IMG/VR virus record: IMGVR_UViG_3300002460_000025
Coordinates: 1-64,000 of that record
Reading direction: 5' to 3' (one strand)
Length of the DNA: 64,000 nucleotides
Source: a virus
In this document: piece by piece, positions 38,700-64,000 of the stretch
Layout of the letters: each line of letters starts with the position of its first letter
Numbering within the stretch: position 1 is the first letter of the stretch
Notes under the pieces: generated by a model
Database searches by the model: none
What the model was told of the DNA's origin: nothing
The model's input: only the letters and a program-made list of their open reading frames with translations
Program-made: the position numbers and the translations under genes

Positions 38700-39455
38700 C
38701 TATGACGATGTGGTTTCTTCCCAGAGCGCGAAGGTGCGGGGGAAGGTTTCTTCGATGATGTCAGCGACCGCTGTGGCATATTGTCGGATCTCCCATTGTG
38801 CGTGGTCAGCCGTCCTCAGGGTGAGGAAGGCGAGCCAGTTTCTGAGGTTCGCGCTTGCTCGCATTCGACTATATTGATTCACCGGCACGACGAGGCGAGC
38901 CAGTTCGCGTGCGACACCATCCTTCAACAACATCTCATAGCAATCTCTCGCGTATGCCGTCGCTGCATAGATGGTATTCAGATGAGTCTGTGCATCCCAC
39001 CTAGTGAATCCTTCAGTTGAACCTTGCTTGTTTGTCGTGGCCTGTTTCCCGGACATCAACCTCTCTATCGACGGAACGTAGAACAGGTCAGGAAGTTCCG
39101 TGTACCGGCCACTCAACTCGTTGTAAGACTGTGTGCGATGTCTGTGCCACTCCCTGAACACGAAGATAGGTGCTTGGACTTCGATGGTCAGTCCTGCCAT
39201 CTCAAAGGGGGTATGGTGCTGGTTCTTCCAGAGGTAACGAAGCAACTTCGTATCACCCTCCATCATGCCTGAACCCTTACACGTCTTGCAGGTGGGCATC
39301 TTGACAGGGATCTGATAACACGTCTCGCAGGGTCGAGGTTCCCATCCCCGGAATCCTTGTGACGTGGACATACGAGCCGCCTCTATGATACGCTCATCAG
39401 ATCCCCAATGCTCGATGTACGTGACGTACCCATGATCTAGAACTTTCCGAGCCAT
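38700..39455 (-). CDS. thyX: Flavin-dependent thymidylate synthase with zinc insert
   Basis: 251 residues from ATG 39455 (TGATG overlap with the upstream gene). The ThyX signature RHRTQSYNELSGRYTEL is complete, giving methylation of dUMP with FAD and NADPH. Unlike typical ThyX, residues about 28-60 hold an extra Cys4 cluster (CETC...CKTCKGSG), like a DnaJ zinc finger. It is the last gene of the leftward nucleotide-metabolism unit. Confidence 0.9.
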   Translation of the reverse strand: MARKVLDHGYVTYIEHWGSDERIIEAARMSTSQGFRGWEPRPCETCYQIPVKMPTCKTCKGSGMMEGDTKLLRYLWKNQHHTPFEMAGLTIEVQAPIFVFREWHRHRTQSYNELSGRYTELPDLFYVPSIERLMSGKQATTNKQGSTEGFTRWDAQTHLNTIYAATAYARDCYEMLLKDGVARELARLVVPVNQYSRMRASANLRNWLAFLTLRTADHAQWEIRQYATAVADIIEETFPRTFALWEETTSS

Positions 39456-39931
39456 CAGTCCAACTTCCTGAACCATTGAGTTTCCTCTTCTGTCCACTCG
39501 ATCAACGATCGTGAATGGGATGTCGTCAAGGCTGCGATCAATTCATCGACACTTATAAATACCCCATCAGCAAACTGATACATCACATCCCATCTGTCTG
39601 GGTTGTTGTCGAGGAGTATATACCCTGGTCTTCTACGACCGATGACATATCCAAGTTCGAGGTGTCCGGATTTGCCAGCAGGAAGAAGTAGGACAGCAGC
39701 ATCGGCTCGATCAAGGTGAGTTTTATCGAATTGGAATACGTTCTTTGCCGCATGTCCTCGCAGGCCCTCAATGTAGCTATGTCCTCTGTCCTGTTCGTAT
39801 TCGCGCCAGCAGTCATCAGCTTCTGGACCAGCGGCGTACCAGTCATCGAAGACCTCGAAACCTGCGTTCCGGATCGTCTGAGCAATCGCAGGAACGTATG
39901 GATTTCTCAGTGATCCGATCAAGTAGATCAC
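39455..39931 (-). CDS. Nucleoside 2-deoxyribosyltransferase-like protein (1)
   Basis: 158 residues. The N-terminus (MIYLIGSLRNPYVPAIAQTI) and DRADAAVLLLPAGKSGHLELGYV fit the family that swaps bases on deoxyribonucleosides; the Glu in HLELGY is the expected nucleophile. It may salvage or edit deoxynucleotides. A second copy-like gene lies at 40973. Confidence 0.75.
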   Translation of the reverse strand: MIYLIGSLRNPYVPAIAQTIRNAGFEVFDDWYAAGPEADDCWREYEQDRGHSYIEGLRGHAAKNVFQFDKTHLDRADAAVLLLPAGKSGHLELGYVIGRRRPGYILLDNNPDRWDVMYQFADGVFISVDELIAALTTSHSRSLIEWTEEETQWFRKLD

Positions 39932-40485
39932 AAACGCTTCCCACCATGCAGCATCGGTCTCGTCTCGTTATAGGCCATCTTCTCCTCAATCATCTTTTCA
40001 CGGACGTATTCTGCTCCATTGACGTTGAACATGACCGCAGCGGCGTGATCCTCGTCCACATCCCCGTTCATCCATTGGGCGAAGTGGCGATCCGCCGATG
40101 CCTTGAAGCGAAAGAGTTCTTCTTCTCCAGCTGCGAGGGTCCAGTTGGGTGTCCCTGTCGTGATGTCAGGATACTTGGTTGCCCCTTTAGTCATATGGAT
40201 CGCCCACCGCTTCAACATGGGGCCTATTCGCACCCTCCACCAGTCAATCTTCCCTTCCTGGGTGTCCCGCACCATTCCCCCACTGAATTCCTGCCGCTTG
40301 CCGGAATCCTTGATCACAAACGCTGTATCTGCCTCTAGACTCATCCCAGGTCCCTCCAATACATGTTGAGCCAGTTGTCGTGTCTTGTAATTCCACTCGT
40401 GTACATCTATCACTGCCTGACATGCCGCACAACGAGCGTCTGGGTTGTCTGGGAAAACTCGAACACAACATGGCGGTCTCTTCAT
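39928..40485 (-). CDS. dATP/dGTP diphosphohydrolase-like (DUF5664-type) protein
   Basis: 185 residues. FSGGMVRDTQEGKIDWWRVR, KGATKYPDITTGTPNW and the FAQWMNGDVDEDHAAAVMFN segment match the PF18909-type domain, related to MazG-like folds and described from phages that control purine dNTP pools. A Cys pair near the N-terminus (CAAC) may bind metal. Its position between ThyX/NDT genes and a helicase-polymerase set fits pool editing. Confidence 0.7.
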   Translation of the reverse strand: MKRPPCCVRVFPDNPDARCAACQAVIDVHEWNYKTRQLAQHVLEGPGMSLEADTAFVIKDSGKRQEFSGGMVRDTQEGKIDWWRVRIGPMLKRWAIHMTKGATKYPDITTGTPNWTLAAGEEELFRFKASADRHFAQWMNGDVDEDHAAAVMFNVNGAEYVREKMIEEKMAYNETRPMLHGGKRL

Positions 40486-40972: not shown

Positions 40973-41392
40973 TTACTCCTCCTCCCTCACCACCACCCGA
41001 CATGCCTCGATCGCATCCTCAATCGAATCAACCTTCCGCACGGTGTCGAGGAAGTGGAACACATTGGTCGGTCCCCCAACCATCACGACATCTTTCCCCA
41101 TCGCGAGAGCCATTCCTGTTTCCACAGCCTTCCCTGATGTCTCAGTCCCTCGTGCTTGAAGATTCAATAATACGAGTATGTCAGCAGCCATGACATCTTC
41201 AATGTCATTGAGGGCCTCTCGTTGGAGCTTCACCGGGTCGAGTTGTAACCCATCACTCGATGTCCCCTCATGGAAATCAATCCACCGACTGACCACATCG
41301 AATCCCGCAGCCCTGAAGTCCTTCGACACTTCCTTCGCATAGGCTTTCTCCGCCCACGGGGCCGCGATGTAGATCTTGATCTGATCATTCAT
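40973..41392 (-). CDS. Nucleoside 2-deoxyribosyltransferase-like protein (2)
   Basis: 139 residues. MNDQIKIYIAAPWAEKAYAK and SGKAVETGMALAMGKDVVMV match the same fold as the gene at 39455, with Glu in VETGMA as likely nucleophile. Start 41392 is the ATG after the polymerase stop, with GGGGGAGG upstream. Two such genes in one operon are uncommon. Confidence 0.75.
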   Translation of the reverse strand: MNDQIKIYIAAPWAEKAYAKEVSKDFRAAGFDVVSRWIDFHEGTSSDGLQLDPVKLQREALNDIEDVMAADILVLLNLQARGTETSGKAVETGMALAMGKDVVMVGGPTNVFHFLDTVRKVDSIEDAIEACRVVVREEE

Positions 41393-44229
41393 TTCATCCT
41401 CCCCCATACAGGACCGGATTTCCCTTCCGTCCCAATAGACAACATCGCTCCCATGTTCCAGGACGCAGGAAGTGGAAGTTCAGGTACGGGCTTTTCCATT
41501 TCTTCCTTCAAGATATCATCGAGGGTATCGACATACGACTCTGGGCACTCAGAGAAGACCTCATCATGCACCTGTAACCTCAAATATTGTCCAGCATCCT
41601 CGAATCGATCATTATAGAGCCTCAAGAGAGCTTCCTTGATGATCCCTGCCGCATTCGATTGCGGTCTGAAGGCAAGCACGGCCTCTGCATCATCTCCAAG
41701 TACCCGTGTCCATGTCCCGAATTCCTTCTTCCAACTGAACACGCGATTGAATCGATGCACATATCCGAAGGCATTCCTCAGATACCCATCATCAGCTGCC
41801 TGCATGCGAATCGTGTGATGCCACTTGGGAATCTCAGGAAACAACTCCCGGTAGATATCCATCACCCTCGCGATCAGCTTCGTCTCATGGAGGACCTGTG
41901 TTTCCTTGAGGATCTTCTCTTGAGCACCAGATGCACCTTGGCCGAAATTGATGGCATGGGTCAGATGCTTATACAATGAGTTCCGATCATGCTTCAGGAG
42001 TGCCTTGAAGTGTGCCAGATGACTGAACAGCTTATCGTCATCCCATGATAACAATGGTAAGTCAGCAGATGAGACTCGTGGATCTTCCAGTCCGTAGAGC
42101 GCATACAAGGTATAGAACGTGTGAACATCCTGTTTCGCCAACCGGATATATCCAGGGCTCTTTGCCTCATACCCTGCCAGAACCGCCTCGATTCCGCCGA
42201 AATCGCGAGCGACAAACACACATCCCGGACCCGCGACGATCAAATTCCGAATAATCGATTGAAGATCATCCTCTTTCCCTGGACGAGGGAGATTCTGGAG
42301 GTTCGGATTCTGGGAAGCGAGTCGAAGAGTCGACGGATTATGGGTAAAAATTGTATGGATACGTCCATCTCTCCCTACCGGCATGCCCCCACGAATGCGT
42401 CCGCCCTCCCCGGTCACACCAATGTAGGTTCCGAGGAGTTTCTGGATCTCCCGATGCTCCCCGATAATCCGATACAGAGGATCCTCCGGATACCGCTTCT
42501 GTAACATCGTCAACGCATTCGCATCGAAGGTGATCTTATGATCCTTCCTCGACAACACGGCTTGATGCTTGAGCACCTTCTGGTATGTCTGGAGGCTGGT
42601 ATTGCTGATCTTGAATTCTAATCTCTTGGTCCATAACGGGACCAGAATCTCTGCTGGCTGTTGTCCTGCTCCCAGACACGGGTTCTCCACGCCTCCAGCT
42701 TTGAGGGCTTTCTTGCCGATGGACTTCGTGTGCGAAGCCAGTGGAGCCACAACACCACATCGATCACAGACACGAACAGGGACCATGGTGTCCTGGCGAA
42801 ACAGTCCCAACTCCGTCGCACGAGCCTCCAACGCATCACCATCAAGTCCCTTCAGTTCCTTGGGAACCCTCTTGTAGACCTTGACCTTCCTCGCATCATT
42901 CGGGACAACGGCAGCCATTCGTGTTTCCACGCCATCGAGGAGGGTAGAGAGTTTCGCTTCAGCCGCCGCCCTCGCAGGTTCATCCCTCAGGACACCTTTC
43001 CCTGACATGTAATTGAGCGCATAATTGAGCGTGACGACATGCCTCTGGAACACGCCCCACAGGTTGTTCGCGATGAGATCCCGCTTGATGCCATAGAAGT
43101 TGGCGATTGTGTAGTTACTATCAGCCGCGTTGTAATAGGCAGGTTGTGAATCGCTGAGATGCTTCCACATGGGTGCGTTCTGTGTGTAGAATGGGGTGAC
43201 GAATCCCAATCCTTTCGGGAGGGATGTATTCAACACATGCCATGCGAGCATCCCGTCGACCATCGATCCACGCACGGGGATCTGGGCGGTGATGCGAGGA
43301 TCATCATATATTGTGGAGTTCCACCCAACCTTCAGTCCGTCGACACTAAAGAGTTCCTCCAGTCCGGCCATGTATTCAGCCCGCCACGGGATTGAGATGG
43401 CCTCACCTGGACGATAAGCAAAGGAGCACCTCAAGATGGTGTAGTCATCATCCTCTTCCTTCGCAATCTCTTCCTCATTTTTTCCAGACTTGTAGGGGGT
43501 TTCGATGTCATAGGCGAGAGCGATTTCATCCTTGTCAGCTTCCCAGGCTCGAATGTAATCCTGAATCCAGACTGCAAATGTTGATGGGGAGGGATCACAC
43601 AGATACGAGGGAGCATCATAGGTACACCCGTGCTCTGCGACCTCCAATGCCCGCCGTGTGGCGAACTGGAGAATCGGGAGCCTCGAACTCTTGCCCTGCA
43701 TGAGGTGGGATGGGTGATCTGCCGCTACGACCCATGCCTGATACTTCTCATTCCTATGGATGTAGCATTGGTAGTCCTCCCGCATCACCGGGTGACGATC
43801 ATCATACCCCATGATCCGTTTGAAGGCGGTCTTCCCTAATGCGAGGATCGTGAAGTGACGCTCACTCTGCCGACAGCGTTCAGCCATGTCAGCGATCGTC
43901 TCATCGAGGAGGGGAGCGCAGTGATCGATGGCGAGCCGCTCGTAGGGCATCTTGACGAGTTTATTTCCAGGCGGCTGACAACTTAGTACGTTGTGAATCC
44001 GAAATCCCTCCCGATCAATATCCACCCGCTTGAGGTTGCTGAACAGATACTGTCCTGCCGCACCTACCACGGGGATCCCTGATGCCGCCTCATCCTTCCC
44101 TGCCGCTTCGAGGACGATGAGGACACCATTGTCCCCGGTGCCGTGAGCAGGAACATACCCCTGCATCGACCCAAATGGGGGGCAGCCGAGAATGCAGGTA
44201 GAGCAGGGGATTTCAGGCTTTGAAAGCAC
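41389..44229 (-). CDS. Uracil-DNA glycosylase / exonuclease / DNA polymerase A fusion
   Basis: 946 residues. From GTG 44229 (ribosome site TGAGGA; TTG 44241 is an alternative) the N-terminal 200 residues match family-4 UDG: Fe-S Cys at about 9, 12, 84 and 104, motif EAAGKDEA, SCQPPGN and DHPSHLM. A 3'-5' exonuclease follows (AYDIETPYKSG, about 240), then family A polymerase motifs A (VARDFGGIEAV, about 675), B (NFGQGASG, about 760) and C (QVHDEVFSE, about 888). It is the replicative polymerase. The glycosylase part may be active or only structural. Confidence 0.9.
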   Translation of the reverse strand: MLSKPEIPCSTCILGCPPFGSMQGYVPAHGTGDNGVLIVLEAAGKDEAASGIPVVGAAGQYLFSNLKRVDIDREGFRIHNVLSCQPPGNKLVKMPYERLAIDHCAPLLDETIADMAERCRQSERHFTILALGKTAFKRIMGYDDRHPVMREDYQCYIHRNEKYQAWVVAADHPSHLMQGKSSRLPILQFATRRALEVAEHGCTYDAPSYLCDPSPSTFAVWIQDYIRAWEADKDEIALAYDIETPYKSGKNEEEIAKEEDDDYTILRCSFAYRPGEAISIPWRAEYMAGLEELFSVDGLKVGWNSTIYDDPRITAQIPVRGSMVDGMLAWHVLNTSLPKGLGFVTPFYTQNAPMWKHLSDSQPAYYNAADSNYTIANFYGIKRDLIANNLWGVFQRHVVTLNYALNYMSGKGVLRDEPARAAAEAKLSTLLDGVETRMAAVVPNDARKVKVYKRVPKELKGLDGDALEARATELGLFRQDTMVPVRVCDRCGVVAPLASHTKSIGKKALKAGGVENPCLGAGQQPAEILVPLWTKRLEFKISNTSLQTYQKVLKHQAVLSRKDHKITFDANALTMLQKRYPEDPLYRIIGEHREIQKLLGTYIGVTGEGGRIRGGMPVGRDGRIHTIFTHNPSTLRLASQNPNLQNLPRPGKEDDLQSIIRNLIVAGPGCVFVARDFGGIEAVLAGYEAKSPGYIRLAKQDVHTFYTLYALYGLEDPRVSSADLPLLSWDDDKLFSHLAHFKALLKHDRNSLYKHLTHAINFGQGASGAQEKILKETQVLHETKLIARVMDIYRELFPEIPKWHHTIRMQAADDGYLRNAFGYVHRFNRVFSWKKEFGTWTRVLGDDAEAVLAFRPQSNAAGIIKEALLRLYNDRFEDAGQYLRLQVHDEVFSECPESYVDTLDDILKEEMEKPVPELPLPASWNMGAMLSIGTEGKSGPVWGRMK

Positions 44230-44431
44230 GTATGTCCTCAATGAGAGATTGAAGTTCTTGGTTGATCACCTTCCACCATCGTTGACTTCGAATCCTACCC
44301 CACGTCTTTGCTTTATGTTTATCAGATAGACTGGACATTCTACGACTCAGTTCACGATCACGTTCAACAGCAGTCCTGATCGACTCCTCACTTATAATGA
44401 TACGAGCGTATATGTTGCGTTGGGTCAACAT
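44213..44431 (-). CDS. Small basic helical protein
   Basis: 72 residues from ATG 44431, helical and basic (RTAVERDRELSRRMSSLSDK), overlapping the polymerase start by 17 bases. Unknown; possibly co-translated with the polymerase. Confidence 0.6.
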   Translation of the reverse strand: MLTQRNIYARIIISEESIRTAVERDRELSRRMSSLSDKHKAKTWGRIRSQRWWKVINQELQSLIEDIRAFKA

Positions 44432-48659: not shown

Positions 48660-48997
48660 GCGGGCTTGGAAGGTGCAAGGGAGTCCTGGTAGCCAAAACA
48701 ATGTGGATTCCCATCAGCATCCAGACCCCCATCCTCATTACACCCAAAGTACTCACACTCCTGCGGGATGGAGTACTCACGGTGCCCATCAGTGGTCAGG
48801 TATCGTCCCAAACGGACTACCATCCCAAGATGATGGTCTTCCCACGAGTGCCCACAGATGCACACACCTGATCGATTCGGTCCCCCATAGATGGGTTCAC
48901 GCCTCTCAACACCTTCATCTGGGGTCCAGTCACACTTGACACACCAATGATGTCCATCAACGGGATCATTCGACATGACGTGTTCACAGTTTTGCAT
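48656..48997 (-). CDS. Cys/His-rich zinc protein
   Basis: 113 residues with NCEHV, HHWCVKCDW, VCICGHSWEDHHLG and a Cys-His end, several possible zinc sites. Its 3' end runs into the promoter of the next unit. Unknown. Confidence 0.7.
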   Translation of the reverse strand: MQNCEHVMSNDPVDGHHWCVKCDWTPDEGVERREPIYGGPNRSGVCICGHSWEDHHLGMVVRLGRYLTTDGHREYSIPQECEYFGCNEDGGLDADGNPHCFGYQDSLAPSKPA

Positions 48998-49443
48998 TAG
49001 AAGGGTGTCCTATCATCGACAGTACGCTCCTCTAACCTCTTCCTCACAGCAGCAATTATGTTAAAGCAATGCCATCCAAATGGGGCAATGACTGCGTCCC
49101 ATCCACCCGTCTTGAGAATCTTTGCCATCCTCGCCGCCCCTTCCGGGTTGTAGGAATGGAGCACAATTGTGGGATTCCCTTTGATCACCTTGTAGTCGAC
49201 TATGTCCGACACAAACGTCGTCCCTGAATCTTCGTGGTCTTCTAAGAACCCACCAACTGCCACAACTACCTGTCTCCCACCGAGATCGTGATCGAGGAGG
49301 ATCAGATCATAGGGCTGACCGTCATGGAATCGTTGAAAATCCTGACAGGTATCGATGATATCCACTGTGTCCACATTGGGATCAAAGTGTTTCTGGAATT
49401 CCTCAAGTCTCTCCGGAGAATCTTCGAGAATGAAGACCTTCAT
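48997..49443 (-). CDS. Receiver-like (cREC) protein
   Basis: 148 residues. It starts MKVFILEDSPERLEEFQKHF and has YDLILLDHDLGG, the pattern of the cyclic-phosphate-processing receiver (cREC) family instead of a phospho-acceptor response regulator. Members are linked to RNA or cyclic-phosphate chemistry in genome surveys. A nearby phosphoesterase and nucleotidyltransferase make that context plausible here. Confidence 0.75.
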   Translation of the reverse strand: MKVFILEDSPERLEEFQKHFDPNVDTVDIIDTCQDFQRFHDGQPYDLILLDHDLGGRQVVVAVGGFLEDHEDSGTTFVSDIVDYKVIKGNPTIVLHSYNPEGAARMAKILKTGGWDAVIAPFGWHCFNIIAAVRKRLEERTVDDRTPF

Positions 49444-54563: not shown

Positions 54564-54742
54564 TATCCTACCCTCCTTCTCCAGTTATAGAGTCGATACG
54601 CCGCATTCCATCCCCGTGCCCACACGATTGAGCACTGTTCTGAACAGAACGTGACCTTCCTTGCTGTCATCCTCCATCGGACGGTGCGATACACTCGGTC
54701 ACACCCTGTACATCTCCTCTTAGTCCAAAGGCGGAAAGTCAT
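54563..54742 (-). CDS. Small basic zinc protein
   Basis: 59 residues from ATG 54742, with CTGC and FCSEQC pairs and many Arg/Trp. Likely a zinc-binding nucleic-acid binder. Confidence 0.65.
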   Translation of the reverse strand: MTFRLWTKRRCTGCDRVYRTVRWRMTARKVTFCSEQCSIVWARGWNAAYRLYNWRRRVG

Positions 54743-55529
54743 GAGCACGCCTCGCTGACCAGGAATAAAAGTACGTCCTCAGCATCCAGTCCTCCACGGG
54801 TTCGATGGTAGGTTCTTCGGGAAGTGGAGATGTCTCACGCAGATCCTTCAATTCATCCTCGAACCGTCCTGCATCTGTCAAGACGGCGTCCAACGCCTTT
54901 TCTCCACGCCTCACTGCACGAATGTACTCCCTCTCCATCTCCGGCATTGGGAGGGTAAACTGCCCCGTCTTCATCAACTCAATCCCCTGTAACCCCAGAC
55001 GGAGCATGTGACTGGCGTACTTGGTATCGTACCCAAACGCCTCAACCAACCCTCGCCTCGGTTGTCCATGTCCTCCATTCCCCCTCTCGCCTAGCAGTCG
55101 TTGACGTTGAGCATGAAGATACCCCAGGAAGGCCCCTCCAGCTTTCCGGCTCACGATGTAAGGTGTGAGTTCCCTCAGTCCCATCCCCCTCGCATCTGCT
55201 ATGATCAGCTGATCATTCGGTACGAACAGTAAGGTGAGTACCGTGGGATTCCCCTTGAGAGCGAGACGGATGTATTTCCTCAAACTATAGATGGTCAGAT
55301 CCAAGTCCCCTGCCTGTGATGGCTCATCCTGTTTCCCAGTCCTCTCGTGGGCTGAGCGATAGACGTATTGTTCAAACGGAGCCCCAATCCCCATCGCCTC
55401 ATCCATCGACTCAATACAGATTCCCATCTCGTCTCGGTCCTCGATGCCATCCTGGATGTTGATTCCATGAACTGTGGACCCTACTGTGGCACGGAGGATG
55501 GTCTGCTGCTCAGCGTGCTGTCTTGTCAT
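54720..55529 (-). CDS. RlaP-like predicted nucleotidyltransferase
   Basis: 269 residues from ATG 55529 (ATGA overlap). ATVGSTVHGINIQDGIEDRD carries the GS...D-x-D signature of DNA-polymerase-beta-fold enzymes of the PF10127 (RlaP) type; a helical C-terminal part follows. Relatives are linked to RNA repair in surveys. With the cREC and phosphoesterase genes it may answer host tRNA-cleaving defences. Confidence 0.7.
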   Translation of the reverse strand: MTRQHAEQQTILRATVGSTVHGINIQDGIEDRDEMGICIESMDEAMGIGAPFEQYVYRSAHERTGKQDEPSQAGDLDLTIYSLRKYIRLALKGNPTVLTLLFVPNDQLIIADARGMGLRELTPYIVSRKAGGAFLGYLHAQRQRLLGERGNGGHGQPRRGLVEAFGYDTKYASHMLRLGLQGIELMKTGQFTLPMPEMEREYIRAVRRGEKALDAVLTDAGRFEDELKDLRETSPLPEEPTIEPVEDWMLRTYFYSWSARRAHDFPPLD

Positions 55530-55651
55530 AGTCGTAATCCCAACCACAACCACACCACGAGGAAACCAAAACCCAACCATGAACCTACTAAGAAGATAGC
55601 AAGTAGTATTCCAGCGACAAACTCTAGCTTATCAATCTTTTCTCTGTGCAT
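55526..55651 (-). CDS. 41-residue membrane peptide
   Basis: Begins MHREKIDKLEFVAGILLAIF, one long hydrophobic helix. TGATG overlap with the upstream gene and ATGA with the downstream one. Confidence 0.65.
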   Translation of the reverse strand: MHREKIDKLEFVAGILLAIFLVGSWLGFGFLVVWLWLGLRL

Positions 55652-59536: not shown

Positions 59537-59782
59537 TCACGCTACCGGCTCATCCGTGTCGAGCCACTGAATCCGTGTCCGCCCCTCGTGTCCGTGAATC
59601 GTTTCAATGGCCTCAATCGGAGGAACCACCGCCTCGATCGTAGGAACGACCTCGATTGTATGGAACCTGCCTAACCAACTGAGGACACATTGTCCATCAT
59701 GGAACTCTACACCTTCCGCGACTACTCCCGTCCCACTCACGCCTGAAATGTCCTCACTCCTCACGAGAAGGAATCGTTTCAC
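59537..59782 (-). CDS. Small protein with IEAVVPPIEAIET repeats
   Basis: 81 residues with a short repeated pattern (IEVVPTIEAVVPPIEAIETI) and a beta-rich start. It overlaps the ATP-grasp stop by 4 bases, so it may act with that pathway. Confidence 0.65.
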   Translation of the reverse strand: MKRFLLVRSEDISGVSGTGVVAEGVEFHDGQCVLSWLGRFHTIEVVPTIEAVVPPIEAIETIHGHEGRTRIQWLDTDEPVA

Positions 59783-60468
59783 TCGACCTCCCTACTGTCG
59801 GCCCACTCCCGAATCGCTTTGGCATACACCCCCACTGTGCCATTTTCTATTCCAGGTGCCCGATTGACCTCCAATACGATCAATGTCTTATCCTTCAACT
59901 GCCCAATATCGACAGCACCAAAGTCCAGCCCAAGCGCCTCAATTGCCCTGTGTGCGAGATCACGATGCTTCTGCTTCACTGACTCACCATCGTAGCTGAT
60001 CCTCCATCCACCATCCCACGAGCGAATCCACTCATGAGGGGTCTCGAACCCCGTGCGATGCACCTTGATCCCGGCCCTCAGTGATCGTCCCTTGAAGGAA
60101 TGCACGCGAAATTCCTTAACAATCTCCTCACGTTTCACCCAATAATCCACCGTTCGTGGAGGCCAGAGGAGATCATTCCCACCGACGTGGTGATTTGATC
60201 GTCCAATCCATCCATCTTGATGTGTCCTCGACACCGTGATCGTCGGCACACCAGCGTTCGTGAGGATCTCCGCATCGGTAAACTTTCCCCTTACCAGGAT
60301 CCCATTGAGGACTTTGCATCTCAGTGCAGGTACTCTCACACCCCACCCAATGACGACATCTTGTCGGATCAGCTTCTTCGGGATGTGACTGACTTTTCTC
60401 CCCTCGACAGCAGCAGCCAGCGCCCTCGCACTCTCCGATGGAACAGGTCTGTAGATATAGATCGCCAC
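59779..60468 (-). CDS. ATP-grasp ligase-like protein
   Basis: 229 residues. VPTITVSRTHQDGWIGRSNH, EFRVHSFKGRSLRAGIKVHR and DFGAVDIGQLKDKTLIVLEV leading to EVNRAPG match a RimK-type ATP-grasp core with the final E-x-N metal motif. It should couple ATP hydrolysis to amide or peptide bond formation. It stands in one leftward unit with a glutamine amidotransferase and an amidoligase. Confidence 0.8.
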   Translation of the reverse strand: MAIYIYRPVPSESARALAAAVEGRKVSHIPKKLIRQDVVIGWGVRVPALRCKVLNGILVRGKFTDAEILTNAGVPTITVSRTHQDGWIGRSNHHVGGNDLLWPPRTVDYWVKREEIVKEFRVHSFKGRSLRAGIKVHRTGFETPHEWIRSWDGGWRISYDGESVKQKHRDLAHRAIEALGLDFGAVDIGQLKDKTLIVLEVNRAPGIENGTVGVYAKAIREWADSREVE

Positions 60469-60471
60469 CCT

Positions 60472-60795
60472 CTATGTCTCCTCGTCCTCATCGAACGTGA
60501 TGCTATACGTTACCATGAATTCATTGATGGCGTCCATGATCTTGTCCATCTTGGCAATGATCGGCGTCGGGATGGTGGCAACGTCTGTCAGGTAGACATC
60601 CACCAATGAGTCGAAAATCTTGTAGCACCCGTCCAGCAGTACCGTTGAGTGATGGAGGGCATCATCAGCGATATCCCCATCATCCTTCTCAAATTCCTCT
60701 TCAGCTTCACCATCAACGTCGGTTCGTCCAGGAGGAAGCAGAAGTGGTTGCTTCCGTTTGACGAAGGTGAGCGTTTCGAGATCAGCGATTCTCAT
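60472..60795 (-). CDS. Small acidic protein
   Basis: 107 residues, acidic (EAEEEFEKDDGDIADDALHH), with helical C-terminus (AKMDKIMDAINEFMVTYSIT). No family recognised; a substrate or partner of the ligase set is possible. Confidence 0.65.
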   Translation of the reverse strand: MRIADLETLTFVKRKQPLLLPPGRTDVDGEAEEEFEKDDGDIADDALHHSTVLLDGCYKIFDSLVDVYLTDVATIPTPIIAKMDKIMDAINEFMVTYSITFDEDEET

Positions 60796-61597
60796 CGCGG
60801 CCCTCGCGGTCCATGTCTCTGACGACTTGGGCCAGTGAACGAGGGGCTCTCTCCGTCATCTGTTCAATATTGGTAAAAATAGACTGGTTCGAGCGACGTG
60901 ATGCTGGTGGAGCGAACGCAGGAGTATCTCTTGGAGTTACAGTAGGTCTTGAATTACCCTGAGGAGCCTGTGGAGCCTGTAGTATGCGCCATCCATTACT
61001 GTCAAACACAACATTGCGAGTAGCACGTGATAACGGCGGTGGCATGTCAATTCCTTCCTCCATCACACTAGTACCTACGGCACCAAAGTCCAATGCTGCC
61101 TCCCCACCGATTGGAGGGGCCTCCACCTCAACAGGTATTGGTCTCCCATTGTAAATGTCATCACACGTCTTACACTTGATCCGAGACAGCTTGACCCCAG
61201 TCGTGTGTCCTTCAGAACATCTTACCACTTGTATGATCCGACACCCCGTACAGAGAATCGAACCTTCAGCGACGACTACCCCCTCATTCTCTACAAACAT
61301 CTGTTGACAGTGATCACAGGCCATCGTCGTTGCCAATCTCACAAGTCCATTGACTTCACGAGGTGACAGGATTGCCCTCCGAATGGTTGTGAGAAGTTGA
61401 CTGGAAAACCCACTCCCTGGCTTCTGCCGCCTGCCGATGGTTGCAAGGCGATCGATCAGATCCACATCATGCGTGGGATGATCCAATTGCTCTCGCAATT
61501 GCGTGAGGACAGCTTGCGCGTCTGGGTGGAGATGATCAACCATCCCCTCCAACTCAGTGAGAAGTATGGTTCCTTGTTTTGGTGTGAGTCTCAGCAT
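60782..61597 (-). CDS. Zinc-finger protein
   Basis: 271 residues. A helical N-terminus (about 1-85), a double zinc site (CDHCQQM...CTGC and CSEGH...CKTCDDIY, about 93-145) and a disordered Pro/Arg-rich C-terminus. Unknown. It lies between ATP-grasp and amidotransferase genes. Confidence 0.7.
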   Translation of the reverse strand: MLRLTPKQGTILLTELEGMVDHLHPDAQAVLTQLREQLDHPTHDVDLIDRLATIGRRQKPGSGFSSQLLTTIRRAILSPREVNGLVRLATTMACDHCQQMFVENEGVVVAEGSILCTGCRIIQVVRCSEGHTTGVKLSRIKCKTCDDIYNGRPIPVEVEAPPIGGEAALDFGAVGTSVMEEGIDMPPPLSRATRNVVFDSNGWRILQAPQAPQGNSRPTVTPRDTPAFAPPASRRSNQSIFTNIEQMTERAPRSLAQVVRDMDREGRDENR

Positions 61598-61600
61598 GGG

Positions 61601-61699
61601 TTATTTCCTCAAGGCATAGATACATATGCCGGTAACCAGCAAGGTTACCAGTCCTACAAACACAGCTATCAGAACGAACGCCATCTCCGGATTGGTCAT
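61601..61699 (-). CDS. 32-residue membrane peptide
   Basis: Begins MTNPEMAFVLIAVFVGLVTL; one helix, short basic end. Ribosome site GGGAGATG. One of the membrane microproteins. Confidence 0.65.
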   Translation of the reverse strand: MTNPEMAFVLIAVFVGLVTLLVTGICIYALRK

Positions 61700-61710
61700 T
61701 GACATCTCCC

Positions 61711-62817
61711 TTACATCTGACACACAATCTGGATGCCCCTCTTGCTGGCATCACGGATTTTCTCACGTCGCTTCAACTCCTCGATGTCAGTCAACTCAAC
61801 AGCTGTACCCATAATCCTCGGGCGATCCTTCTTCATCCAACACGTACCGCAGATCCATTCAAACGTGCCTGCCAGACGATGATTGGCGTTGTGAACATCC
61901 TTGGGATCACAGAAATCACACATCCCACTTTTTGAGTGGATTGTGAGCACAGCTGGCTTCTTCTGGTAGCAATCCCAACACTGAGCCACATTATTGGAGG
62001 TTGTCCAAATTCCCGCCACCTTCCCACAGGCACAGTGCTTGTCACGTTGGGCTAGCGCCGTGACCTTTTGCGTTTGTGTGATCGTCCCGTCGCCTGTGCC
62101 AGAAGTTGCCGCATCAGTCGATTGTATTTCTTTCTCCCGATCCTTCCAGTAGCCAGCAGATCCTCCAGTTCCTCGAAACGATGTCTGGTCGGAGGCACCT
62201 CTACCCCCTCGATGGCCCCCCATTGAGAACGGTGGTGTCAGATAGTGAGATACATGTTTCCACTCCGTATTGGAGTACCACACCCCATCATCGTATGTCC
62301 AATCACCAAACAATTCGATGTCATCTGTCTTGAACACCGCCACCTTTTCGTTGATCAACTCCAACAACCCGAGACCGAGATAATTGGACGCCAAGGCTAG
62401 TGCCCTCGTGTCTGTCCACGACCCAGTAGGGAGCTTGAACGGCACCTTACAGGCCAACTCGATGATCTTGTTCTTCCAATCACTCCACATCCCATTGTGG
62501 AACAAGACAGCACCATCGATTGTCCCCTCCAACGTCGTATCAGCGTCAGGGCTGATAGGGAATGGATGACACCCAAATGGCCCAAGCGCAGTACCTACAG
62601 ATGGATTCCTGAAATGCAGCACGTACGGGAGAGGGATTGTCTTGTTCAGAGTCACGACCTCCTCAAGGGTCAGCCCTTTACTCCACCGGACAGCTTTCCT
62701 CCCGTCCTTCTCCTCCAGCCATGCTGCTCCAGCCCCGGAGGGATGCTTCTCAAACCCCTTCTTTACACTATCCTCGGTGATTCTCGTATCCCCGTTCGCC
62801 ACCATGATCACGCACAT
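61711..62817 (-). CDS. Class II glutamine amidotransferase with zinc ribbons
   Basis: 368 residues. MCVIMVANG places the catalytic Cys at position 2, as in class II (Ntn) glutaminases; YVLHFRNPSVGT and VLFHNGMWSDWKNKI are the expected substrate-site segments. The C-terminal third carries zinc-ribbon pairs (CACGK...CWDC; CDFC...CGTC). It should release ammonia from glutamine for the neighbouring amidoligase or ATP-grasp enzyme. The zinc tail is unusual. Confidence 0.85.
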   Translation of the reverse strand: MCVIMVANGDTRITEDSVKKGFEKHPSGAGAAWLEEKDGRKAVRWSKGLTLEEVVTLNKTIPLPYVLHFRNPSVGTALGPFGCHPFPISPDADTTLEGTIDGAVLFHNGMWSDWKNKIIELACKVPFKLPTGSWTDTRALALASNYLGLGLLELINEKVAVFKTDDIELFGDWTYDDGVWYSNTEWKHVSHYLTPPFSMGGHRGGRGASDQTSFRGTGGSAGYWKDREKEIQSTDAATSGTGDGTITQTQKVTALAQRDKHCACGKVAGIWTTSNNVAQCWDCYQKKPAVLTIHSKSGMCDFCDPKDVHNANHRLAGTFEWICGTCWMKKDRPRIMGTAVELTDIEELKRREKIRDASKRGIQIVCQM

Positions 62818-62819
62818 GA

Positions 62820-63632
62820 TTAGATCCTCTCCTGATAATGGTTGATCTCAGCAGCGCCGAGAGCGACCTGTGCCAATTTCCGTGGTTCTCTCTCACGCAT
62901 CTTGGAGAGGAACTGATTCGTGATGCTCAAGACTGTCCTCACTGCCCGAGTGGCTTGTTCCGGCGTCTCCATCATGGGGAGGAGACGACATTCGACCGTT
63001 CGATGTTGTGCAAAACAGTAGTTGAGGGCAGTATAGCGATTGTGAGGCTTTCCCCGACTGTGGAAATCTTTTTTCTCTATTTTTACCTGTTCATCGCCAC
63101 AGTACTGATGAGCACAGTGATCGTGATTCTTCCTCGTCAGTCGATCCCAGATAGGGTGATCCTTTGCCAATCGCTCCGTTCCTGCCCAGTCGAGGAGTCT
63201 CACCACCATCTCCATCGTGAATCGAGGGGTCATGAGGCGTTGGTAATTCAAGCGATTGACCAATCCCATATGAACGTGTAACCCACACGTTTCGTTCACG
63301 TGGTGGGGATAGTACTTCATGATCGCTCGTTCCAACTCATCAGTTATCACGGCAAAAGGACCGAGAGGGATCTCACCAATCCCAACCTTTGGATAGGCCA
63401 TCCCCACATCCGCAGGGAGATCAACAGGTTCCATCGTCCTCATGTTCACGTAACGGTTGTTCCCATCATCGAATCCTATACCAGGAGGTAACTTCGGTCG
63501 TGGGAAGACCAGACTCCCATCTCTGAGGAGTTTGACACCCTTTGGGAGTTTGTCCCACCCTCCCTCCAACTCGATTCCCACCGTGTCGATACGGTTTGGG
63601 ATACCATCAATCCTGACGCGCTTCTTCGCCAC
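62820..63632 (-). CDS. Amidoligase (PF12224-like)
   Basis: 270 residues. TVGIELEGGW, LLRDGSLVF, NETCGLHVHMG, RYTALNYCF and TVECRLLPM are the conserved blocks of the glutamine-synthetase-fold amidoligases that join amino groups to carboxylates. It begins two bases after the amidotransferase stop region, indicating co-translation. Confidence 0.85.
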   Translation of the reverse strand: MAKKRVRIDGIPNRIDTVGIELEGGWDKLPKGVKLLRDGSLVFPRPKLPPGIGFDDGNNRYVNMRTMEPVDLPADVGMAYPKVGIGEIPLGPFAVITDELERAIMKYYPHHVNETCGLHVHMGLVNRLNYQRLMTPRFTMEMVVRLLDWAGTERLAKDHPIWDRLTRKNHDHCAHQYCGDEQVKIEKKDFHSRGKPHNRYTALNYCFAQHRTVECRLLPMMETPEQATRAVRTVLSITNQFLSKMREREPRKLAQVALGAAEINHYQERI

Positions 63633-63642
63633 CCTGCTCCTC

Positions 63643-63972
63643 CTATATCTTGGTGTACGACGACACCGTAATCTGTGCCTTGACAGGCTTCAGGTAGTCA
63701 GTGAAGAACCGAGCAGCCATCCTCGTGATACGGTCATTGAGGCGATCATGTTGTTCACGAGATGCGACCTCCTCAGACACAAACGTCACGCCCTCAGGCC
63801 CACTGGCACCGACAAGCCTGAGGAATGAGAGGTTGATGGGCTCACTAAGCAGGCTGCTCCCAAGTGAATTGAGATCATATGGGTTCTCATACGAGATGGT
63901 CCCATCAGGGAGCATCCATGCCGTGAGGGCTCCAGACTTTGGAATCCACAGACGCCCAAGTGACACGGACAT
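63643..63972 (-). CDS. Small protein upstream of the amidoligase
   Basis: 109 residues, begins MSVSLGRLWIPKSGALTAWM and ends SSYTKI. Alpha/beta, charged helix near the C-terminus (REQHDRLNDRITRMAARFFT). No family recognised; first gene of the ligase set inside the window. The unit probably continues beyond the edge. Confidence 0.65.
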   Translation of the reverse strand: MSVSLGRLWIPKSGALTAWMLPDGTISYENPYDLNSLGSSLLSEPINLSFLRLVGASGPEGVTFVSEEVASREQHDRLNDRITRMAARFFTDYLKPVKAQITVSSYTKI

Positions 63973-64000
63973 ATCGATCTTTTGGTCGATCGCCCAGTGA

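Follow-up and report, generated by a model that had tools for sequence, protein, structure and literature searches.

Do an amidoligase, a class II glutamine amidotransferase (GATase), and an ATP-grasp ligase, encoded side by side in an uncultured virus, form a new system, and on what would such enzymes act? The genes lie in IMG/VR record IMGVR_UViG_3300002460_000025, of whose 71,620 bp the first 64,000 bases make up the stretch analyzed here (the window). The record carries genes for a P22-like portal, a terminase, and a major head protein on its plus strand and replication genes on its minus strand. An initial annotation had assigned the three enzymes to a group of six minus-strand open reading frames (ORFs), put forward as a candidate new system. 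The six ORFs are confirmed at their positions, and their description as a set that makes amide or peptide bonds is supported by motifs, profiles, relatives, and fold. The three enzymes are where they had been placed, but the set does not end at position 63632, as had been thought; there are five enzymes, and the operon runs on. Nor is the system new: the same set has been published as the "peptidoglycan modification cassette" of phages phiEco32, PA11, tf, LUZ24, PaP3, CW02, and RIO-1 (PMC5498523, PMC11945000, PMC3890496). Judged by its protein sequences, the window set is an intact, very divergent version of that cassette rather than a new system. The locus is thus probably a complete but divergent representative of the known phage amidoligase cassette, encoded with the early and replication genes of a tailed phage.

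Organization of the operon

As far as the window shows it, the minus-strand operon has the six ORFs at its upstream end; the end of the window cuts the operon. In the full record, a 161-residue ORF, a COOH-NH2 ligase, and a gamma-glutamyl cyclotransferase lie past 63632 and precede the amidoligase. The genes follow in operon order, together with the one that adjoins the ATP-grasp gene:

65299-65769 (beyond the window), minus strand: gamma-glutamyl cyclotransferase; PF06094, E 6e-27
64116-65336 (beyond the window), minus strand: COOH-NH2 ligase; PF14395, E 8e-12
63643-64128 (63643..64000 inside the window), minus strand: winX, 161 aa; homologues in 7 other cassette contigs
62820..63632, minus strand: Amidoligase_2-type carboxylate-amine ligase of the glutamine synthetase (GS) fold, 270 aa; assigned by motifs, relatives, and predicted fold
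61711..62817, minus strand: class II (Ntn) glutamine amidotransferase of 368 aa; invariant catalytic residues; two Cys-pair motifs resembling zinc ribbons at the C terminus
61601..61723, minus strand: single-span membrane peptide, 40 aa; hydropathy 2.87 over 19 residues
60782..61597, minus strand: ZF, 271 aa, Cys4-type predicted zinc-binding core; C-x2-C ... C-x2-C kept in relatives
60472..60795, minus strand: AC, a strongly acidic protein, 107 aa; immediately upstream of the ATP-grasp gene
59779..60468, minus strand: RimK/LysX-like ATP-grasp ligase, 229 aa; phrog_2599, E 3e-25
59537..59782, minus strand: phrog_7499 protein, 81 aa, adjoining the ATP-grasp gene; phrog_7499, E 4e-28

The five enzymes are encoded in one tightly packed operon, in which neighboring genes overlap by 4-38 bp or leave gaps of at most 10 bp. 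Among the six ORFs within the window the gaps range from -14 to +10 bp, a spacing like that of a translationally coupled operon.

The phage amidoligase cassette

The described set is also carried in the gene list of UFV-P2 (PMC3890496), and superinfection exclusion has been proposed for it (PMC5498523, PMC11945000, PMC10580990). A literature search found no functional experiment on the phage cassette, and the earlier statement that phage examples are biochemically uncharacterized holds in the literature found. Iyer et al. 2009 is reportedly the source that the cassette papers follow. The five enzymes appear in closely similar order, beside primase and polymerase genes, in PaP3, phiEco32, O4, LAh_9, Vp_R1, T5S1, and Slicky01, with the cyclotransferase not annotated in the O4 cassette. 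Among phage records, 303 contain the COOH-NH2 ligase and 226 the ATP-grasp enzyme.

A survey of gene neighborhoods in IMG/VR, in which 79 loci were found by the COOH-NH2 ligase alone, located an amidoligase within 10 kb in 70 loci, an ATP-grasp enzyme in 67, and a GATase in at least 66; many of the contigs behind such locus counts are truncated. The enzymes therefore co-occur in most loci, and they do so in excess of chance. A class I GATase (peptidase C26) is present in 56 of the 79 loci and a protein termed "X" in 47, which makes them frequent companions rather than strict criteria. In the whole record of the window phage there is no match to the class I GATase or to the "A" and "X" proteins.

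When IMG/VR was scanned with family alignments and the loci were searched with profiles, eight cassettes emerged as a clade, all from uncultured viruses (the window, L012, L013, L015, L091, L092, L094, and L184). Every one of them encodes the COOH-NH2 ligase, the amidoligase, a GATase of the window-type subfamily, the ATP-grasp enzyme, and winX. Catalytic residues are intact at 30-50% identity.

The COOH-NH2 ligase and the amidoligase

The COOH-NH2 ligase passes the PF14395 cut-off (45 bits versus 25) and shares 20 invariant columns with eight phage homologues. The amidoligase itself lies under the PF12224 cut-off (15.2 versus 22 bits, E 0.02); this profile is matched by 11 of 14 aligned amidoligase relatives. 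All 14 aligned sequences share the ExE, HVH, and E-x-R motifs without change, and the window protein keeps every invariant residue of its family. The structures used here are predictions from shallow alignments. That of the amidoligase has a predicted local distance difference test score (pLDDT) of 77, and in a fold search its top twelve PDB matches are glutamine synthetases, the best with an E-value of 8e-3 and a probability of 0.94. Further down the list are predicted glutathione synthase/YbdK and the Pup ligase PafA. Because the single E-values are modest and the TM-scores low, the weight of this match lies in its consistency. A GS fold for the amidoligase is supported by the predicted structure.

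The class II GATase and the cyclotransferase

The GATase has no Pfam match of its own. Residues C2, H68-x-R70, G75, P85-F86, N108-G109, and D136 are invariant in an alignment of eight sequences, and some positions are only nearly invariant in a second alignment. In a profile comparison, residues 1-113 align with phage class II GATases (E 3e-5, probability 73%), and among 10 relatives, 3 match PF13230 and 2 match PF13522. Pattern scans with the single sequence returned no close relative of the GATase and one of the cyclotransferase.

The zinc-ribbon tail of the GATase had been regarded as a pointer to a binding partner, and this proves to be a weak clue. Cys pairs occur in the GATases of the window, L012, L094, and L014 and are absent from those of L013, L015, L091, and L092; with half of the clade lacking them, zinc ribbons were rejected as a defining feature of the GATase. 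Many other phage GATases also have Cys-pair tails, so the ribbons may be a loosely kept feature, and by these alignments they do not single out the window cassette.

The cyclotransferase passes the PF06094 cut-off. Phage C75C1 (39 kb) encodes a class II GATase and a gamma-glutamyl cyclotransferase as a single polypeptide, and a 41% identical homologue in the uncultured podovirus MW202828 spans both domains (L003 10001-10897 and L190 7001-8218). Such a protein ties the two activities to each other and supports the view that they share an intermediate. Across cassettes, the cyclotransferase and the class I C26 hydrolase are partly alternative (Fisher p 0.025, relatedness uncorrected).

The ATP-grasp ligase and its acidic neighbor

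The ATP-grasp enzyme, with motifs DFGAVD and EVNRAPG, matches PHROG 2599, "ribosomal protein S6 glutaminyl transferase". When a profile built from nine sequences of its family was run against the PDB, RimK came first (5zct, E 2.4e-9), ahead of cyanophycin synthase and D-Ala-D-Ala ligase; against rimK_fam the E-value is 7e-7, under the cut-off of that model. By these profile comparisons, the enzyme groups with the RimK/LysX glutamate ligases and also with MptN. Of the three families first named, this one was recovered directly by profile search, while the amidoligase and the GATase, the one below its cut-off and the other lacking a Pfam match, were both recovered through relatives. The residues on which the assignments had been based are kept: Cys2 of the GATase (invariant in 8 aligned sequences), E-x-N of the ATP-grasp enzyme (within EVNRAPG), and ExE/HVH of the amidoligase (invariant in 14).

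In all eight clade cassettes, the ATP-grasp gene is separated from the cassette gene before it by an acidic ORF of about 90-145 residues. This protein, AC, is the most acidic small protein of the locus in seven cassettes and the second in one, and in the window phage it ranks first for acidity among 29 early small genes. Sequence similarity among the AC proteins is clear for some clade pairs only. A comparison within the clade found no conserved Cys and no zinc motif of the LysW type, and a direct link of AC to LysW was rejected on both C-terminus and zinc motif. An acidic partner upstream of the ATP-grasp gene was likewise rejected as a general feature of the cassette. The variable C-terminus of AC and the lack of an acidic counterpart at this place outside the clade argue against a LysW-like carrier. 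AC may be a partner or an acceptor that the RimK-like ligase has in this clade only. The initial annotation merely listed it, yet it is a more interesting partner than the zinc ribbon. Separately, in cassettes outside the clade, small proteins encoded directly downstream of the ATP-grasp gene exceed the products of other small genes in acidity (median -0.04 versus 0 per residue, p 1e-4).

winX, ZF, and the membrane peptide

In the window phage, winX is located between the COOH-NH2 ligase and the amidoligase. An IMG/VR scan, which relied on one conserved motif and may miss divergent copies, found homologues in seven other contigs, every one of which bears the cassette. There is no match in 50,697 phage records, and the predicted fold (pLDDT 83) has no match in the PDB or BFVD; winX was accordingly rejected as a known fold. 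Homology to the LUZ24 "X" protein, which has the same place in LUZ24-type cassettes, was also rejected (probability 0.2%). The accessory genes are less constant. ZF is present in six of the eight clade cassettes, and membrane peptides comparable to that of the window occur in three others, with none in the remaining ones at an equal cut-off. The phrog_7499 protein, present in four of the eight clade loci, is common in Streptomyces phages and probably not cassette-specific.

Inheritance of the cassette

Four of the seven relatives in the clade belong to the virion lineage of the window phage (terminase 58-67% and capsid protein 74-77% identity); in the remaining three, neither a terminase nor a capsid gene is detectable. 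Cassette similarity is equal within and between virion lineages (0.38 and 0.39 for the COOH-NH2 ligase, 0.33 and 0.33 for winX). Since the virion genes do not show such equality, the block appears to be kept as a functional unit and to have moved between phage lineages. The distance matrices of winX, the COOH-NH2 ligase, the amidoligase, and the GATase agree with one another (r 0.45-0.66, Mantel p 0.0005-0.015), and this correlation holds despite the location of winX in L015 and L092, where it follows downstream of the ATP-grasp gene. Eight taxa are few, however, and the correlation is therefore only moderate evidence. Distances of the ATP-grasp enzyme are uncorrelated with those of the other four genes. 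Together, these patterns suggest that the two ligases, the GATase, and winX move as a unit and that the ATP-grasp gene is exchanged separately.

What the cassette may do

Judged by family, each of the three ligases (two of the GS fold, one a RimK/LysX-like ATP-grasp enzyme) would spend ATP to activate a carboxylate and couple it to an amine. The class II GATase would draw ammonia from glutamine or cleave gamma-glutamyl amides, and the cyclotransferase would remove gamma-glutamyl groups as 5-oxoproline. In combination, a glutamate-based amide would be assembled and trimmed on a cytoplasmic acceptor. With low confidence, the RimK-like ligase of the clade might work on or with AC, and, with equally low confidence, winX could be a structural or acceptor partner of the block formed by the COOH-NH2 ligase, the amidoligase, and the GATase.

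Several points weigh against so complete a picture. The amidoligase and GATase of the window are under or outside Pfam cut-offs and were assigned through relatives, motifs, and fold; the cyclotransferase was detected in only three of the eight clade loci, some of which are truncated; the C-termini of AC are not conserved; and there is no bias toward acidic proteins upstream of the ATP-grasp gene outside the clade (p 0.43). No enzyme of the phage set has a known substrate, and the present data do not separate wall, protein, and metabolite as the target.

A cell-wall precursor is a tentative candidate for the final target: amide links in the stem peptides of peptidoglycan precursors would be added or changed during infection, so that competing phages could not adsorb or lyse. 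Peptidoglycan precursors are cytoplasmic, in keeping with this proposal. Roughly half of the clade cassettes encode a small membrane peptide, although such peptides are not universal. Modification of the wall is also what has been proposed in print for the RIO-1-like, phiEco32, and LUZ24-like phages (PMC10580990, PMC5498523, PMC11945000), but no experiment was found in the literature, and the cassette sits among replication genes rather than lysis genes. As for the host, on which the type of wall depends, the nearest virion relatives of the window phage are groundwater contigs and actinophages, the nearest terminases include those of a haloarchaeal virus and of Arthrobacter phages, and a genome scan for the host gave metagenome-assembled contigs only. 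It is somewhat doubtful that the target is instead a protein, either the acidic one encoded by the phage itself or some other, with the RimK/LysX-like ligase adding glutamate or another amino acid to AC and the remaining enzymes lengthening the product or trimming it. RimK acts on ribosomal protein S6, and LysX acts on LysW. The grouping of the ATP-grasp enzyme with RimK, LysX, and MptN, and the position of AC directly before it in 8 of 8 loci, as the most acidic small protein in 7, fit such a scheme. Neither the variable C-terminus of AC nor its lack of a LysW-type zinc motif does, other clades have no acidic partner at this position, and ATP-grasp distances do not track the rest of the cassette. 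A narrower version, in which the clade cassette would be a peptide-tagging system for the phage's own proteins and not a wall-modifying one, the ATP-grasp enzyme loading amino acids onto AC and winX serving as acceptor or scaffold, seems unlikely.

A small gamma-glutamyl or peptide metabolite, made for amine scavenging or as a signal, for example, through gamma-glutamyl protection and removal of the Puu or butirosin kind, is a rather doubtful target. The cyclotransferase encoded here, the class I C26 (PuuD-like) hydrolase of 56 of the 79 other cassettes, the partial alternation of these two enzymes, and the existence of a GATase-cyclotransferase fusion all point in this direction, but the conserved, non-enzymatic winX and AC would be left unexplained, and no transporter or tailoring enzyme is encoded alongside. 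Some other target is quite improbable. That some cassettes lack the cyclotransferase, ZF, or the membrane peptide might be taken to mean that the genes are chance neighbors or decayed and have no common function. That explanation is extremely improbable and already contradicted by the present results, namely the co-occurrence in IMG/VR, the intact active sites of divergent enzymes, the correlated distances, and the transfer between virion lineages.

If the locus is a divergent member of the known cassette, its clade, which keeps the enzymes and swaps the accessories, separates a core (the two GS-fold ligases, the GATase, and the ATP-grasp enzyme) from replaceable parts, and winX and AC are two candidate partner proteins. 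The function of the cassette has been guessed at for years; the question of its target is now approachable with a few purified proteins.

Other features of cassette-bearing phages

Shared C-terminal peptides were seen among small proteins of some cassette phages. In Rhizobium phage RHph_N3_19 (L191 6385-23192), 16 ORFs, and in RHph_I3_11 (L193), 12 ORFs end in a near-identical peptide, Q-x-GD-[TR]-[ED]-[ED]-DI-stop. The sixteen proteins of RHph_N3_19 differ, many starting with an SH3-like "VGDxV", and BLAST finds no body-to-body similarity among them. Codon differences within the peptide are mostly synonymous where checked, and it does not occur internally in the genome. All of the tagged ORFs are in the early region surrounding and including the amidoligase cassette. 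The tag could conceivably be a recognition or modification tail. It is absent from the phiM6 stretch (L194) and from the window phage, and a degenerate DNA scan of IMG/VR for it found nothing. Elsewhere, pairs of small SH3-like proteins share a contig-specific tail: L077 9748-9975 and 11796-12035 (KVSTFKGNK), L014 2541-2750 and 3397-3627 (PN[SN]KI[LV]IQE), and L149 8973-9293 and 9259-9576 (RRKEQGYAF). Such tails are lacking in phiEco32, LAh_9, the window phage, and the cassette-free control N4, so that a link between tail and cassette is not established. A shared tag in the small neighbors of the window cassette was rejected; it is real in some cassette phages and not here.

The window phage also encodes an RNA-repair set (54720-55580 and 48997-49443 in the window; L002 13400-14428 and 15788-16816) that comprises an RlaP nucleotidyltransferase, a cyclic-phosphate receiver domain, an RNA ligase, and a polynucleotide kinase-phosphatase. 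At 41389-44241, a family A DNA polymerase and a family-4 uracil-DNA glycosylase form one fused protein, for which the full-length match in the phage collection is from a virus assigned to Methanomicrobiales. A dATP/dGTP diphosphohydrolase N-terminal domain (39928-40485), a nucleoside deoxyribosyltransferase (40973-41407), and ThyX (38700-39497) suggest altered nucleotide pools. An association with 2-aminoadenine DNA, considered with a PF18909 protein present, was rejected because there is no PurZ in the record. The end of the record (71349-71620; L002 18349-18620) holds an ORF of degenerate repeats (EAYRVWGEAYRAYGEAYRVYGEA...) that is cut by the contig end.

Comparison with known systems

PuuA/PuuD and BtrJ/BtrG of butirosin are gamma-glutamyl protect-and-release pathways. 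Like the window set, they pair a GS-fold or ATP-grasp ligase with a gamma-glutamyl hydrolase or cyclotransferase; the window set, in contrast, has three ligases and a class II GATase, with no oxidase, dehydrogenase, or acyl-carrier domain alongside. The LysX-LysW pathway likewise places a RimK/LysX-family ligase beside a small acidic protein, but AC lacks the conserved C-terminal Glu motif and the zinc-binding residues. As for the ligase itself, its best relatives in the PDB and NCBIfam are the RimK/LysX alpha-L-glutamate ligases, which belong to the same ATP-grasp subfamily; the phage enzyme is shorter (229 aa) and falls under the curated cut-offs.

The GATase-cyclotransferase proteins of C75C1 and MW202828 represent the closest GATase subfamily among phage records (26%) and have a related cyclotransferase domain. 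There the two domains are fused and neither an ATP-grasp enzyme nor a COOH-NH2 ligase is annotated alongside, whereas in the window phage they are separate genes. The closest system as a whole is the cassette of phiEco32, LUZ24, and RIO-1. Compared with it, the window set lacks the class I C26 GATase and the "A" or "X" proteins, has a GATase of another subfamily, adds ZF and the acidic protein, and has a COOH-NH2 ligase only about 25-31% identical to those of cultured phages. In both, a type 2 COOH-NH2 ligase, an Amidoligase_2 protein, a class II GATase, a RimK-like ATP-grasp enzyme, and a gamma-glutamyl cyclotransferase are encoded in one early operon, and in both a protein of 160-220 residues and of undefined kind, non-homologous between the two, lies between the two ligases.

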